A program made the translations under genes and the position numbers. Of a DNA stretch of 61,232 nucleotides, positions 5,710 through 42,736 are shown piece by piece. Location: positions 1 through 61,232 of the forward strand of contig NZ_JAGPBB010000012.1 in NCBI RefSeq assembly GCF_018063565.1, given 5' to 3'. Positions within the stretch are counted from its first letter, which is position 1. Every line of letters begins with the position of its first letter. This DNA comes from Rhodoferax sp. Lineage in GTDB: Bacteria > Pseudomonadota > Gammaproteobacteria > Burkholderiales > Burkholderiaceae_C. The notes under the pieces are model-generated. The model ran no database searches, was not told the origin of the DNA, and saw nothing but the letters and a program-made list of their open reading frames with translations.

Positions 5710-5750
5710 TTGATATTTGTCAACAAAGGGTTTTCCCGCAGGCGTCTAAT
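5710..5750 (+). promoter_or_regulatory. FNR-type box and -10 element upstream of the rquA-like gene
   Basis: TTGATATTTGTCAA at 5710-5723 matches the FNR/Anr consensus TTGAT-N4-ATCAA at nine of ten positions. A possible -10 element TCTAAT lies at 5745-5750. If transcription starts about seven bases later, near 5757, the centre of the box sits at about -41, the standard place for a class II FNR activator. The coding start is at 5815. Activation under low oxygen would suit rhodoquinone synthesis. The match is read by eye and untested. Confidence 0.5.
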
Positions 5751-5814
5751 ACCGGCTGGCCAAAATTGTGGCAGTTGGGCGCTTCGTTGACCCATTGCCT
5801 TCGGAAAGAATTCG

Positions 5815-6612
5815 ATGACTGACTGGGTAACGTACGCCGTCTTTGCGGTGTTGTTGGTGCTGACCAGCACCGCACTTTTCTTCTTCACCCTGACCCGCGG
5901 CACGCTGCTGATGCGTGGTGCGCTGGGGCGCCTGCAGCACGAGGCGGCCCATGTTTACCCGATCTATTCCAACCTGCGGCTGATCCGTCTGGTGGACTGG
6001 CAACCCATCATTGCGGCGATCCTGCTGTTTCAGTACAGTCGTCTGGTGTCCATCATCACCCACGGTCTGCGTCACACGGCGTTGCAGGACAAACAGGTGT
6101 TGATCACCTCATGCGCCTTTGGCAACGTGATGCCGCGGGTGGCGGGGGCCGCCATGAAAGCCGGCGCCAAGCGTCTGCTGGTGGCCGACATCATTCAGAA
6201 TGAGCTCGATCACGCCCGGGGCAAACTTGAATTTTGTGCCGCCCATACGGATTACCTGCAGCAAAACGCGACCGCCATGACCCTGCCCGATGCGTCCGTC
6301 GATGCCAACGTGATGTTTTTTTTGCTGCACGAGTTGCCGCACCACCTCAAGGAGCAGGCGCTGGCCGAGGCGATGCGGGTTCTGACGCCTGGCGGCAAGT
6401 TGTATCTGGCAGAGTTTCACCGGCCACGCCCCTGGCTGTTGCGTGCCTTGAGCTGGACTTACTTCAAGGTATTCGAGCCCTATGGCCTGGCCCTATGGAA
6501 TACCCATGACCCGGTGCTGCAACTTCAGGCCATGCCCGGCGTGCAGTGTGAGCGCCAGGTGGTGTTTTTTGGCAATTTCCAGGTGATAGTGGCGAGCAAG
6601 CGTGGCGTGTAA
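5815..6612 (+). CDS. rquA: RquA-like SAM-dependent enzyme, candidate rhodoquinone biosynthesis protein
   Basis: A 265-residue class I SAM-fold protein with an extra N-terminal hydrophobic segment (about residues 5-28). RquA converts ubiquinone to rhodoquinone, the low-potential quinone used in anaerobic fumarate respiration. As I recall the family, its signatures are an altered SAM motif I (C-x-(Y/F)-G in place of the usual D/E-x-G-x-G), FFLLHE-(L/I)-P, PGGK, a (D/E)-(Y/F)-HRP motif and F-EP-(F/Y)-x-x-x-LW. All are present: SCAFG, MFFLLHELP, TPGGKLYLAEFHRP and FEPYGLALW. The alternative is an ordinary methyltransferase of unknown function. The N-terminal hydrophobic extension seems unusual and could bring the enzyme to its membrane-bound substrate. 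An FNR-type box precedes the gene. Confidence 0.62.
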   Translation: MTDWVTYAVFAVLLVLTSTALFFFTLTRGTLLMRGALGRLQHEAAHVYPIYSNLRLIRLVDWQPIIAAILLFQYSRLVSIITHGLRHTALQDKQVLITSCAFGNVMPRVAGAAMKAGAKRLLVADIIQNELDHARGKLEFCAAHTDYLQQNATAMTLPDASVDANVMFFLLHELPHHLKEQALAEAMRVLTPGGKLYLAEFHRPRPWLLRALSWTYFKVFEPYGLALWNTHDPVLQLQAMPGVQCERQVVFFGNFQVIVASKRGV

Positions 6613-6678: not shown

Positions 6679-8910
6679 TTAAATTAGAAGCGGATCCACG
6701 TCGATCGCCCAGCGTAGCAGTCCCCGGCATTCGGGCAGGCTGCGATGGCTGTGCAACAAGGCTTGCCAGACCGACAAAAAGCGTTGCAGCGCCAGCCGTG
6801 ACGCACTCTCGATCAGCATTTGCGAGCGCTCGATGTTGGCCACGCGCTGAATTCCCATCGGTACCGCCGGGTAGAGTGTGATGTGTTCCAGCATTGTTGC
6901 AGCTTGCGCCAGGGTGCCAGCAGCCTGACGAGCCAGGTTGAGGAACGCCTGGGCTGCTTCCTGGGTACGCGCTTCGGCCCGTACCAAAGCCTGAAAACTG
7001 AAGGGTGGCATGCCCGCCTGCTGGCGTTCGTGCAACTGCGACTCGGCAAAAGCCGGATAGTCGTGGTGTTTCAGCGCCTCAAACAGCGGGTGTGTGGGGT
7101 GAAAGGTCTGCAGCCACATTTCGCTGTGGCCGCTTTGGCTGGCATCGCGCCCGGCCCGCCCGGCGGCTTGCATCAGCAAACCAAACAAACGTTCGGGGGC
7201 ACGAAAGTCGCTGGAAAACAGCGCGTTGTCAGGGTTCAGGGCTGCGACCAGCGTGATGCGGCGAAAGTCATGGCCCTTGGCAATCATCTGCGTGCCCACC
7301 AGCACATCCACTTCGCCCGCGTGCACCTGGGCCAGTTGTGATTCCAGCGCACCCTTGAAACGGGTGGTGTCGGCATCGATGCGCACGATGTTCACGGGTC
7401 GCCCGTCTGGCCGCGGGCTGTCGGCCAGCAGCGCGGCCAAAAGTTCTTCCAGCCGCTCGGTACCGCGCCCCAGTGGTGCGATGTCGAGGTTGCCACAGTC
7501 CGGGCAGGCGCGTGGCACCCGCTCGGTAAAACCGCAGTGGTGGCAGCGCAGCGTGCGGTCAATCTTGTGAAACACCCGGTAAGCACTGCAGTGCGGACAA
7601 CTGCTTTTCCAGTCGCAATCACCGCAGCTCAGCACCGGGGCGTAGCCGCGCCGATTCAGGAACACCATGCTTTGCTCGCCACGGGTGACGCGCTGCACGA
7701 TGGCATCGAGCAAGGGGGGCGAGATCACGCAACCTTTGGGCTGGTGGTTCATGTCGACGCGGCGCACCTGTGGCAGGGTAGCGCTGATGAGCGCGGCCGT
7801 ATCCTGGGCCTGTGTGGCGGTGCCACCAATCCGGCTGGGCATGTGCAGACGCTGGTAACGGCCACCCTCGCTTTGCGGGCGGCTGTGGTACCAACTCTCC
7901 AGCGACGGCGTTGCCGAGCCCAGCATCACCTTGGCACCTTCCAGCCGGCCGCGGTAGATGGCCAGGTCACGCGCCGAATAGCGGGCGCCTTCGTGGCTTT
8001 TGTAGCTGGGGTCGTGCTCCTCATCCACGATGATCAACTGAAGCTGCGGCATCGAGGCAAACACCGACATCCGGGTGCCCAGAACGATGCGGGCCACCCC
8101 ACTGTGGGCGGCCAGCCAGCTTTTCAGACGCTGAGCCGGCGTCATGCCGCTGTGCAGCGACACCACGGCATCTTCGCCGTACTGTGCGCCAAAACGTGCC
8201 TTGAAGCGTGCCTCCAGTTGGGGTGTCAGGTTGATCTCGGGCACCATCACCAGCGCCTGCGCTGTTCCTTGTGTGGCCAGCAGATCGGCGGTACAGCGCA
8301 TGTACACCTCGGTCTTGCCGCTGCCGGTGGCACCAAACAGCAGAAAGGGTCCGGAATTTGCATGAAATTGGTCAATAGCGCTTGTCTGTTCAGGGCTTGT
8401 TGCTATGAAAATCGGCAGCGGTTGTGCCGCCTGAATCAAACCTTGGGGCCGTTCGGCCTGACCGTTGCGCGTGGCTTGCACCTGAGTTTTGGCGCGCTTG
8501 AGGCGCCGCGCCAACTGCACCGTGCTCAGGTCACGCAGTTGCGGTGGCAACGCCGCCAGGGCCACTTCACCCGCGGCACGCTGGTAATAAGCCGCTGCAA
8601 AGTCAATCAGTTTGCGCCAGTTGGCACTCAGCGGCGGCACACCGTCCAGCACAGCGGCAATCGGGCGCAGCTTGGCCGGATCAAGTGGCGCTGCGCTTGC
8701 CGCACGGGAGTCGCCTGGGTCGGGCGGCGTATCCCAGACCACACCCATCAACTCGCGCTGTCCCAACGGCACCCTGACCAGGGTGCCAGGCGCAAGCAAA
8801 GTCGGACTCAGATAACTCAGCGCCAGCGCCACCTGACTGTAGGCCGGGGTGTGCAACAGCACCGGCACCCGGTACCGCAGTTCTGTGTCGAGTTGGGATG
8901 CTTTGTTCAA
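6679..8910 (-). CDS. priA: Primosomal protein N' (PriA), replication-restart helicase
   Basis: A 743-residue superfamily 2 helicase that recognises abandoned forks and starts reassembly of the primosome. Visible are Walker A GATGSGKT (193-200), Walker B VDEEHD, the zinc-binding region with CGDCDWKSSCPHC followed by CHHCG and CPDCG, and the C-terminal motifs LVGTQMIAKGHDF and QAAGRAGR. Length matches the family. The first usable start is a TTG at 8910; there is no ATG before the conserved region and a GTG at 8868 is an alternative, so the N terminus is uncertain. A copy of the interspersed repeat (8373-8412) is translated as the linker just before Walker A. hemE lies upstream on the same strand, 335 bp away. 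Confidence 0.93.
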   Translation of the reverse strand: MNKASQLDTELRYRVPVLLHTPAYSQVALALSYLSPTLLAPGTLVRVPLGQRELMGVVWDTPPDPGDSRAASAAPLDPAKLRPIAAVLDGVPPLSANWRKLIDFAAAYYQRAAGEVALAALPPQLRDLSTVQLARRLKRAKTQVQATRNGQAERPQGLIQAAQPLPIFIATSPEQTSAIDQFHANSGPFLLFGATGSGKTEVYMRCTADLLATQGTAQALVMVPEINLTPQLEARFKARFGAQYGEDAVVSLHSGMTPAQRLKSWLAAHSGVARIVLGTRMSVFASMPQLQLIIVDEEHDPSYKSHEGARYSARDLAIYRGRLEGAKVMLGSATPSLESWYHSRPQSEGGRYQRLHMPSRIGGTATQAQDTAALISATLPQVRRVDMNHQPKGCVISPPLLDAIVQRVTRGEQSMVFLNRRGYAPVLSCGDCDWKSSCPHCSAYRVFHKIDRTLRCHHCGFTERVPRACPDCGNLDIAPLGRGTERLEELLAALLADSPRPDGRPVNIVRIDADTTRFKGALESQLAQVHAGEVDVLVGTQMIAKGHDFRRITLVAALNPDNALFSSDFRAPERLFGLLMQAAGRAGRDASQSGHSEMWLQTFHPTHPLFEALKHHDYPAFAESQLHERQQAGMPPFSFQALVRAEARTQEAAQAFLNLARQAAGTLAQAATMLEHITLYPAVPMGIQRVANIERSQMLIESASRLALQRFLSVWQALLHSHRSLPECRGLLRWAIDVDPLLI
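8373..8412 (+). repeat. Interspersed ~40-bp repeat, copy 2 (inside priA)
   Basis: It begins CAATAGCGCTTG and ends GTTGCTATGAAAAT, with the two conserved blocks spaced exactly as in the other copies. It lies within priA, which is read on the other strand, and is translated without a stop as part of the stretch leading into the Walker A motif (around IFIATSPEQTSAIDQ). The reading frame is intact. Confidence 0.65.
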
Positions 8911-41389: not shown

Positions 41390-42292
41390 ATGATGCACCG
41401 TTTTGTTAACTTGGTCCGCTGGCGTATCGGCGCAGCGACTCTGGCATGTGCGCTGCTGCCGGCGCTGGTATTTGGGCAAACCGCCGGGCCGGCCGTTGCA
41501 CCCGTGGCGGCGGTCTCGTCGCCGGTGTCAGCCGACACCCTGATTTCAGCGACCAGCCTGTCCAGCGCCGGTATCGTGGCGCCGGTGGCAGATGCGCCGG
41601 CACCACGTCAACCGTATGGGTTTCGGTCGGTATGGGCGCAGGGCGATGGGGTGGCTCGCCTGACCATCGTGGTGCTGCTGATCATGTCCTTGTTGAGCTG
41701 GTACATCATGGTGGCCAAGCTGATCGAGCAGCGGCGCCTGGCCGCCCAGTCATTGGCGGCGCAGCGGGTGCTCAGTGGCAGTGCACCGCTGACCAGCCGG
41801 GTGCAGACCTTGCCAGCCGGCAGCCCCTTTTACCTGCTGGTCGACTCGGCCTTGAAGGCAAGCGACCGCCATGCCGGTCTGTCCGGTCAGGTCGACCGGG
41901 CCAGCTGGCTGAGTCAGGACATCGTGGCGAGCGTGACCTCGTTGCAGATGCGCGCGCAGGACGGGCTGTCGGTGCTGGCAACGGTGGGTGCCACGGCTCC
42001 GTTTGTCGGTCTGTTTGGTACCGTCTGGGGCATCTACAACGCGCTGGTCACCATTGGTGTGTCCGGGCAGGCATCGATTGACAAGGTCGCAGGGCCGGTG
42101 GGCGAGGCCTTGATCATGACCGCGCTCGGCCTGGCGGTTGCGGTGCCCGCCGTATTGGGCTACAACTGGCTGGTGCGTCGCAACCGGGTCACGTTGCACG
42201 TCCTGCGCGGATTCGGGTCCGAGCTGCACACCCAGTTGCTGGAGGAGCTTGAACAACAAGCGCGCAACAATACCGAGCAGCAGGTGGCCTGA
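41390..42292 (+). CDS. exbB: ExbB/TolQ/MotA-type proton-channel protein
   Basis: A 300-residue inner-membrane protein that with ExbD converts proton flow into mechanical work. A signal-like N terminus and an Ala/Pro-rich periplasmic stretch (about 28-80) precede TM1 (VVLLIMSLLSWYIMVAKL), a cytoplasmic loop, and the family core GATAPFVGLFGTVWGIYNA leading into TM2, then TM3 with EALIMTALGLAVAVPAVLGYN. The long periplasmic extension is of the kind found in two-exbD systems. GAGG nine bases before the ATG at 41390 is a good ribosome site. exbD starts four bases after the stop. Confidence 0.9.
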   Translation: MMHRFVNLVRWRIGAATLACALLPALVFGQTAGPAVAPVAAVSSPVSADTLISATSLSSAGIVAPVADAPAPRQPYGFRSVWAQGDGVARLTIVVLLIMSLLSWYIMVAKLIEQRRLAAQSLAAQRVLSGSAPLTSRVQTLPAGSPFYLLVDSALKASDRHAGLSGQVDRASWLSQDIVASVTSLQMRAQDGLSVLATVGATAPFVGLFGTVWGIYNALVTIGVSGQASIDKVAGPVGEALIMTALGLAVAVPAVLGYNWLVRRNRVTLHVLRGFGSELHTQLLEELEQQARNNTEQQVA

Positions 42293-42295
42293 GCC

Positions 42296-42736
42296 ATGGC
42301 CATCGTGTTCAAGGAGGGTGATCTGGCTGACGACACCATGCTGTCCGAAATCAACACGACACCCCTGGTGGACGTGATGCTGGTATTGCTCATCATCTTC
42401 CTGATCACCGTGCCCGTCATCAACACCTCGGTGGTGGTGCGTTTGCCCAGACAGGCCAACCAGCTGCAGCAGGGTGAGGCACAGGCGGTGTTGATTTCGG
42501 TGGATGCGCTGGGAGGCACCTACTGGTTTGACAGTCGTATCCAGGACCCGCAAACCCTGTCTGAGCGCTTGCGAGAGGTGGCGGCGCGCCAGCCACAACC
42601 GCCGATTCATATTCGTGGTGACGCGCGTGCCGACTACGCGGCGGTGGCGCGAGTGCTGCAGGCAGCGCAGGCGGCGGGTCTGGCGCGTGTCGGCTTTGTC
42701 ACGGAACCACCTGGAGCGTCTGGCCATGGCGATTGA
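42296..42736 (+). CDS. exbD: ExbD/TolR protein, first copy
   Basis: A 146-residue biopolymer transport protein with a short cytoplasmic N terminus, one membrane segment and a periplasmic domain. The essential proton-path aspartate is D26 in EINTTPLVDVMLVLLIIFL. The periplasmic part has the ExbD pattern LISVDALGG and P-I-H-I-RGDARADYAAVARVL. It follows exbB by three bases and its end overlaps the second exbD by eleven bases. Confidence 0.9.
   Translation: MAIVFKEGDLADDTMLSEINTTPLVDVMLVLLIIFLITVPVINTSVVVRLPRQANQLQQGEAQAVLISVDALGGTYWFDSRIQDPQTLSERLREVAARQPQPPIHIRGDARADYAAVARVLQAAQAAGLARVGFVTEPPGASGHGD

Follow-up and report, generated by a model that had tools for sequence, protein, structure and literature searches.

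Introduction

Rhodoquinone serves fumarate reduction. RquA, the closest described relative of the protein studied here, is reported to aminate ubiquinone, with SAM as the amino donor, in a reaction that requires detergent and, preferably, Mn (PMC9814641), and the portions of two studies that we draw on suggest that the conversion of ubiquinone to rhodoquinone needs no enzyme other than RquA (PMC9814641, PMC6529003), the second of them naming R. ferrireducens as a rhodoquinone producer. SAM contacts in the R. rubrum enzyme are given as D118 and D143 (PMC9814641), and the motif I of RquA proteins carries a signature consisting of Q at position 3 and V at position 7 (PMC7813818). Respiratory genes are often found beside rquA, and the part of the report cited here found no linked quinone-biosynthesis gene (PMC5953543).

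Other described systems resemble the locus in one feature and depart from it in another. The rquA paralogues of heterotrich ciliates provide a precedent for more than one RquA-type protein per organism, but in the ciliate proteins motif I reportedly retains its Q and V (PMC7813818), unlike in our gene. The predicted FNR sites of ubiTUV likewise place a palindromic 14-bp box before a quinone-related low-oxygen gene, but one belonging to the ubiquinone pathway (PMC11707229); in the portion of that paper cited here there is no mention of a gene of the present type. The UbiE/COQ5 quinone C-methyltransferases (TIGR01934, PF01209) share with it a methyltransferase domain and, probably, SAM binding, but have RNxT where it has HExP.

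Here we describe this gene on a Rhodoferax sp. contig (NZ_JAGPBB010000012.1), the whole analyzed stretch of which, 61,232 nt, we refer to as the window. RquA itself is known already; the window type is RquA-related, not RquA, and in the literature searched (on rquA, rhodoquinone, Rhodoferax, FNR and aminoquinones, with papers covered in part) we found neither a mention nor an earlier description of it, while no paper in that literature uses the term "RquA-like". Throughout, W denotes proteins of the window type, R canonical RquA, and Y, a type named by its score band, the RquA relatives of other proteobacteria.

Results

The window gene

The window gene, identified by its reading frame, profile score and trees, extends over 265 codons plus stop from an ATG at position 5815 to position 6612 on the forward strand, and is preceded by a probable ribosome-binding site, GGAAAG (5803–5808, forward strand), with AAGGA or GAAAG similarly preceding many orthologue starts. 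The initial annotation had described a 265-residue protein with the motifs SCAFG, MFFLLHELP, TPGGK, EFHRP and FEPYGLALW, and we recover both the frame and every one of these motifs. The frame is kept open over its full length in relatives of 59–90% identity, the exceptions being pieces at contig ends and one split copy (genome G390), and comparison with the nearest relative, L177, gives a dN/dS of ≈0.04 (ungapped NG86, with dS near saturation). On the strength of the open frame in relatives and the dN/dS value, 5815–6612 is a real gene. An auxin-efflux-type transporter gene (PF03547, 4739–5707) lies upstream on the same strand and the PriA gene (6679–8910) downstream on the opposite strand, and the window gene therefore looks monocistronic. 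At the left end of the window, 1–2366 on the forward strand, are type VI secretion genes, encoding an IcmF-related, IcmF_C domain protein (TssM-like) and a TagF_N protein.

Relation to RquA and UbiE

The RquA model NF038261 (NCBIfam) is the best of 21 families for the window protein, at 123.1 bits against a curated cut-off of 175; the next best family gives 51 bits, and the UbiE model TIGR01934 gives 51 bits, below its cut-off of 158. The Pfam families PF08241 and PF01209 are both matched above their gathering scores, and searches of solved structures with the window protein return remote methyltransferases only. The same genome holds a second RquA-type gene on another contig (G000:C1:41911–42570; L002, L257), the product of which scores 311.1 bits with NF038261 (cut-off 175). 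A search of the genome with the window gene matched it at 41944–42567 with 32% identity, the two proteins having 59 residues in common over 251 aligned positions, and its motif I region reads VLQVACVYG, with Q and V in place, compared to VLITSCAFG in the window protein. The genome's own UbiE (L005) is a third and separate protein, scoring 398 bits (cut-off 378).

Scores with NF038261 fall into bands. R proteins reach 264–322 bits as near full-length matches, with fragments lower; Y proteins mostly lie at 155–186 bits, with one at 225; full-length W proteins lie at 95–123 bits, and UbiE-like proteins at 37–50 bits. The identification as rquA made in the initial annotation is thus right as to the nearest known family, but the canonical rquA is elsewhere in the genome. 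Nor is motif I RquA-typical, as had been claimed: the Q and V of the published signature are missing, and the window protein has I and A instead. Judged by its sequence, the window gene is a putative membrane-anchored RquA relative, not the genome's rhodoquinone-making gene itself.

Conserved and changed residues

We aligned 19 W, 37 R, 25 Y and two UbiE-type sequences, numbering conserved residues by the window protein and changed positions by the genome's own RquA reading frame. The H, E and P of the RquA-type HExP motif, present in the window protein as HELP (residues 172–175; 6328–6339, forward strand), are found in 19/19 W, 37/37 R and 25/25 Y sequences, while both UbiE-type sequences have R, N and T. 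W proteins further keep D125, K137, G193-G194, E221-P222, W228 and G253, as they do H172-E173-x-P175, in common with R and most Y proteins, and Q256 in common with R. Both UbiE-type sequences depart from W at HExP, K137, W228 and Q256. What W and RquA have in common can be summarized as HExP, the SAM-ribose Asp, K137, EP....LW and FG..Q.

Against this background, seven sites that are near-constant in R and Y are changed in all 19 W sequences: Y59 to V/I, W61 to P, A62 to I/L, Q107 to I/V, V111 to A, Y112 to F and Q138 to E. An eighth such site, Y263, is F in 17 of the 19, and P52 and Y54 are lost as well, in a region where W is variable and the alignment less sure. The motif I Q (position 3) is present in 36/37 R and 24/25 Y sequences and the V (position 7) in 34/37 and 23/25, compared to none of the 19 W sequences for either; the altered motif, SCAFG (residues 99–103; 6109–6123, forward strand), is invariant in 57 W proteins. 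The SAM-ribose Asp, D125 in the window protein, is kept in 19/19 W sequences. The second SAM aspartate column is N151 in the window protein, with N in 15 and D in 4 of the 19 W sequences, and N is also found there in 18 of 25 Y sequences; the match of these columns to R. rubrum D118 and D143 is our own assignment, R. rubrum RquA being, as far as known, not in the alignment. Given the loss of the polar motif I residue and the Asn at the second aspartate, SAM binding could be impaired. Taken with a dN/dS of ≈0.04, the fixed differences speak for a change of function under constraint, not for decay.

A further difference from RquA is a hydrophobic N-terminal segment (residues ~5–26; 5827–5892, forward strand), a predicted membrane anchor that is followed by a TRGxL motif. 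The mean hydropathy of the window protein is 2.38 at residues 8–26. A 19-residue hydropathy of 1.6 is reached within the first 45 residues by 77 of 80 W orthologues, and before the conserved PxYL by none of 37 canonical RquA proteins; the segment, which the initial annotation had pointed out as unusual, is therefore real and typical of the clade. F22, F23, F24, T27, G29, L31 and R34 are invariant in 57 W proteins.

Phylogeny

Two trees were built, one of 85 and one of 60 sequences, with no known characterized RquA in either; the split gene of G390 was left out of both, and the long outgroup sequences L003 and L006 of the larger tree were left out of the smaller, where L285 is again long. In both trees W is monophyletic (100/99) on a stem of ~2 changes per site, and W, R and Y together stand apart from the outgroup sequences (100/96 with 85 sequences; 100/97 with 60, where the outgroup is UbiE-type). 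W is a separate clade of its own, related to RquA. Its exact place is less firm. The best trees, in which long branches are involved, put W outside R+Y (89/78 with 85 sequences, 93/89 with 60), but in AU tests the alternatives that join W to R (p = 0.381), to Y (0.397) or to the R subclade holding the genome's own RquA (0.258) are not rejected. Grouping outside the RquA clade, which the initial annotation had named as refuting its assignment, is what the best trees show, while the AU tests allow an origin beside or inside RquA. In the 85-sequence tree two of the 25 Y sequences, L129 and L151, group with canonical RquA.

Two simple identities can be set aside on these data. That the window gene is the genome's canonical rquA is ruled out by its score (123 vs 311 bits), the motif I changes and the clade of its own; that it is UbiE/COQ5 is ruled out by the UbiE-model score of 51 bits (cut-off 158) and by the split from UbiE-type sequences at 100/97.

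The FNR-type box and promoter

An FNR-type box, TTGATATTTGTCAA, matching nine of ten key bases, was read in the sequence at 5710–5723 (forward strand) and found again in a pattern scan, and a −10 element, TCTAAT, follows 21 nt after it at 5745–5750 (forward strand). The window gene thus has the class II arrangement, i.e., a box with at least nine of ten key bases and a −10 about 21–23 nt after it, from which we infer a start site near 5757 with the box centre near −41. One FNR-type site alone is weak evidence, since the window contains 8 sites with at most one mismatch (0.9 expected) and the genome 255, compared to 23 for the reversed pattern.

For conservation, we used upstream regions (up to 250 bp) of 80 W orthologues, taken from the best 80 of 160 stretches that encode a W relative, and 2760 random windows from the same loci as control. 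A site with at least nine of ten key bases is found in 20/80 W regions, 17 of these being perfect, compared to 31/2760 control windows and 0.4% of shuffles; 60 of the 80 W regions have no such site, though 34 have one matching eight of ten. When a −10-like hexamer 20–24 nt after the box is also demanded, 17/81 W regions (window included) have a box of at least 9/10, vs 0/2760 control windows, and with at least 8/10 the counts are 27/81 and 12/2760. Of 21 promoters with a box of at least 9/10, window included, 15 have a −10-like hexamer 21 nt after the box and 3 more have it at 22 nt. Conservation above control makes the box more than a chance match, an explanation that the 20/80 and 31/2760 counts rule out; the conserved promoters are, at the same time, not independent of each other, since they come mostly from the closest relatives. 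The box and −10 at class II spacing that had been noted at the outset are accordingly present, and some members of the family share them.

The genome encodes an Fnr orthologue (G000:C105:19723–20439; 238.4 bits, cut-off 228), and Fnr would, on this promoter reading, activate the window gene under low oxygen. RquA shares this setting in some genomes: within the genus, a perfect FNR box lies upstream of canonical rquA in 5 of 20 cases, and a box of at least 9/10 is found at 6 of 86 loci, repeats included, in a wider set of canonical rquA (shuffles, 0.5%). Within about 350 bp of the genome's own canonical rquA no FNR box was found, the best site there matching 6/10.

Linkage to rquA and fumarate reductase

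W lies directly upstream of canonical rquA, on the same strand and with a gap of ~255–261 nt, in two genomes of a second family (around G1449): Betaproteobacteria RIFCSPLOWO2_02_FULL_65_20 (L254) and G1510 (L299). The rquA products there score 303 and 299 bits, respectively, and facing each pair are genes for FrdB (399 and 397 bits, cut-off 333), FrdD (124 and 123 bits, cut-off 60) and an FrdC-like protein (87 and 89 bits, below the cut-off of 143). This arrangement is found at 2 of the 140 W-bearing loci scanned, many of which are short and some from one genome. At the other W loci the neighbours vary by lineage (auxin-efflux-type transporter and priA, serS, ispH, and others), and those named in the scan are not quinone enzymes.

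Distribution and co-occurrence with rquA

A pattern scan of genome contigs finds 160 stretches encoding a W relative. Among the best 80 of these the carriers are mostly Rhodoferax, Comamonadaceae, Burkholderiales and uncultured betaproteobacteria, with a few MAGs of Polaromonas, Janthinobacterium, Ramlibacter, Paucibacter, Methylotenera and Oxalobacteraceae, one "Gammaproteobacteria bacterium" and two plain proteobacteria. Isolates among the same 80 include Rhodoferax antarcticus ANT.BR and Rhodoferax sp. BLA1, U11-2br and U2-2l, and the W gene nearest to the window gene, at 90% identity, is from a Rhodoferax MAG. In strain ANT.BR the W gene lies at L208:8001–8792, and the genome contains a canonical rquA as well.

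We counted W and R across samples of related genomes (both/W only/R only/neither; Fisher test), and this relatedness means that the p values overstate independence. The genus sample of 60 genomes gives 35/5/6/14 (p = 1.3 × 10⁻⁵), or 21/3/1/7 (p = 3 × 10⁻⁴) for the 32 good assemblies only. The family sample of 399 genomes gives 12/4/19/364 (p = 7 × 10⁻¹²; "both" being 11 plus G224), or 6/2/13/120 (p = 7 × 10⁻⁵) when counted by genus, and the 98 genomes of the second family give 12/4/10/72 (p = 9 × 10⁻⁷). In the order sample (399 genomes) W is found in the window's genome and G773 only, both with R, and in the phylum (398) and class (229) samples in the window's genome only, with R or Y in 77 and 26 others, respectively; in the family, order, phylum and class samples some genomes had only part of their candidates scored, and absences hold at that depth. 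Counted as present are the split W gene of G390, the contig-end rquA fragments of G224 and G017, and, in the second family, a two-piece rquA match in G1514 (175 and 104 bits). Some genomes are shared between samples: G086, G224 and G773 appear twice, at identical places.

Since R genes had first been called by resemblance to W, we scored those of the genus (41 loci) and family samples, bar the G224 fragment, against a W, an R and a Y profile. Every one fits R best; 13 of the family loci had also served to build the R profile. A binning artefact as the source of the W–rquA pairing is ruled out by G009, G066 and G076, single-contig genomes that carry both.

Co-occurrence is not obligatory on either side. 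Of 45 genomes chosen as W carriers, 32 have R over the cut-off, one has an R fragment and 12, of unstated completeness, show no R; W is therefore no obligate partner of rquA, which suggests that W can be useful alone. W without rquA is also seen in G005, G011, G037 and G086, genomes that are 98–100% complete, and in the family sample 19 of 31 R genomes lack W. A genome search of G037, a W carrier in a single contig of 3.0 Mb, found no Fnr match, and with the rquA-less carriers this makes the link to rhodoquinone and Fnr not a strict one. Within the genus, W is further associated with a class of the U32 peptidase family (34/6/8/12, p = 7 × 10⁻⁴), taken here for UbiU on its size and score, in one case on a fragment. 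W and rquA could both simply mark a low-oxygen life style. An origin of W by duplication of a betaproteobacterial rquA would agree with its narrow range and its pairing with rquA but not with the best tree; the AU tests are compatible with a split either before or after canonical RquA arose.

Some further observations concern single genomes. G037 keeps an open W gene and has no rquA over the cut-off. Two W copies occur in one assembly (G016:C257 and G016:C475), and likewise in one MAG (L215 and L226); G652 (C42, C28) and G257 (C1, C3; L058, L303) have two canonical RquA genes each, and G1054 two Y-band genes (C8, C4).

Discussion

With moderate confidence, we take the window gene to encode an Fnr-induced, membrane-tethered, RquA-related enzyme that acts on the low-oxygen quinone pool, probably as a SAM-using ring modifier and not as the main amination enzyme. 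The protein would be held in the cytoplasmic membrane by its single N-terminal helix, with the SAM-methyltransferase-type domain behind it placed on the cytoplasmic side, as the Arg after the helix would suggest. On falling oxygen, Fnr may activate the gene from the class II site, and the product would then share the membrane quinone pool with RquA and fumarate reductase, its presumed substrate being a quinone; most likely it would use SAM to modify the ring of ubiquinone or rhodoquinone, and the main ubiquinone-to-rhodoquinone amination would be left to the canonical rquA elsewhere in the genome. We advance only tentatively the wider proposal that this is a second component of bacterial rhodoquinone metabolism, a tethered, Fnr-induced RquA paralogue that would make a further ring-modified quinone out of ubiquinone or rhodoquinone, or work with RquA at fumarate reductase.

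W resembles RquA in its shared residues, in the FNR box found upstream of both in some genomes, and in its low-oxygen setting, and it differs in lacking the motif I Q and V, in the added N-terminal membrane helix, in its separate long-stemmed clade and in coexisting with canonical RquA in the same genome. In a first rival reading, which is the function proposed in the initial annotation, W is an additional rhodoquinone synthase: an RquA isoenzyme that evolved fast, carries out the same ubiquinone amination and is perhaps anchored for very low oxygen. That RquA is the nearest family, that HExP and other RquA-shared residues are kept, that AU tests (p = 0.26–0.40) allow an origin beside or within RquA, and that W persists in some genomes without rquA, where it could serve alone, are all consistent with an isoenzyme; we nonetheless consider it unlikely, given a score below the RquA cut-off, the loss of the motif I Q and V in 19/19 W sequences, and the changes at eight near-constant RquA positions. 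Isoenzymes that replace each other would also be expected apart, yet W and rquA co-occur.

The altered motif I can be read differently, as the mark of a pseudo-enzyme and non-catalytic partner. Its anchor, a helix without counterpart in the canonical RquA sequences, would recruit RquA, or a dimer of it, to the membrane and supply it with ubiquinone. Co-occurrence and tandem order with rquA agree with such a role, as does the detergent needed by purified RquA in the portion of the biochemical work cited (PMC9814641), but the same source has purified RquA making rhodoquinone in vitro, catalytic-type residues are invariant in W, 12/45 W carriers have no rquA and 19/31 rquA genomes of the family sample no W, and we judge this partner role less likely again. 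Least probable to us is a low-oxygen role outside quinones, in which W would be a SAM-dependent methyltransferase whose substrate is some other membrane lipid or a small molecule. The varied neighbours (auxin-efflux-type transporter, priA, serS, ispH), the genomes with W and no rquA, and the long stem of the clade speak for such a role, while the retention of RquA-shared residues, the rquA and fumarate reductase genes adjoining W in two genomes, and co-occurrence with rquA in two families argue against it.

Given its co-occurrence with rquA in two families, its place before rquA and beside fumarate reductase genes in two genomes, and the low-oxygen box found in part of its range, W would be a candidate for a second step or partner in rhodoquinone metabolism, or for a new quinone. 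Searches by resemblance only can call W genes rquA, in which case rhodoquinone producers are miscounted. As a separate observation on the NCBIfam model, its cut-off of 175 cuts through the large Y clade (L130–L153), most members of which score 155–186 bits.
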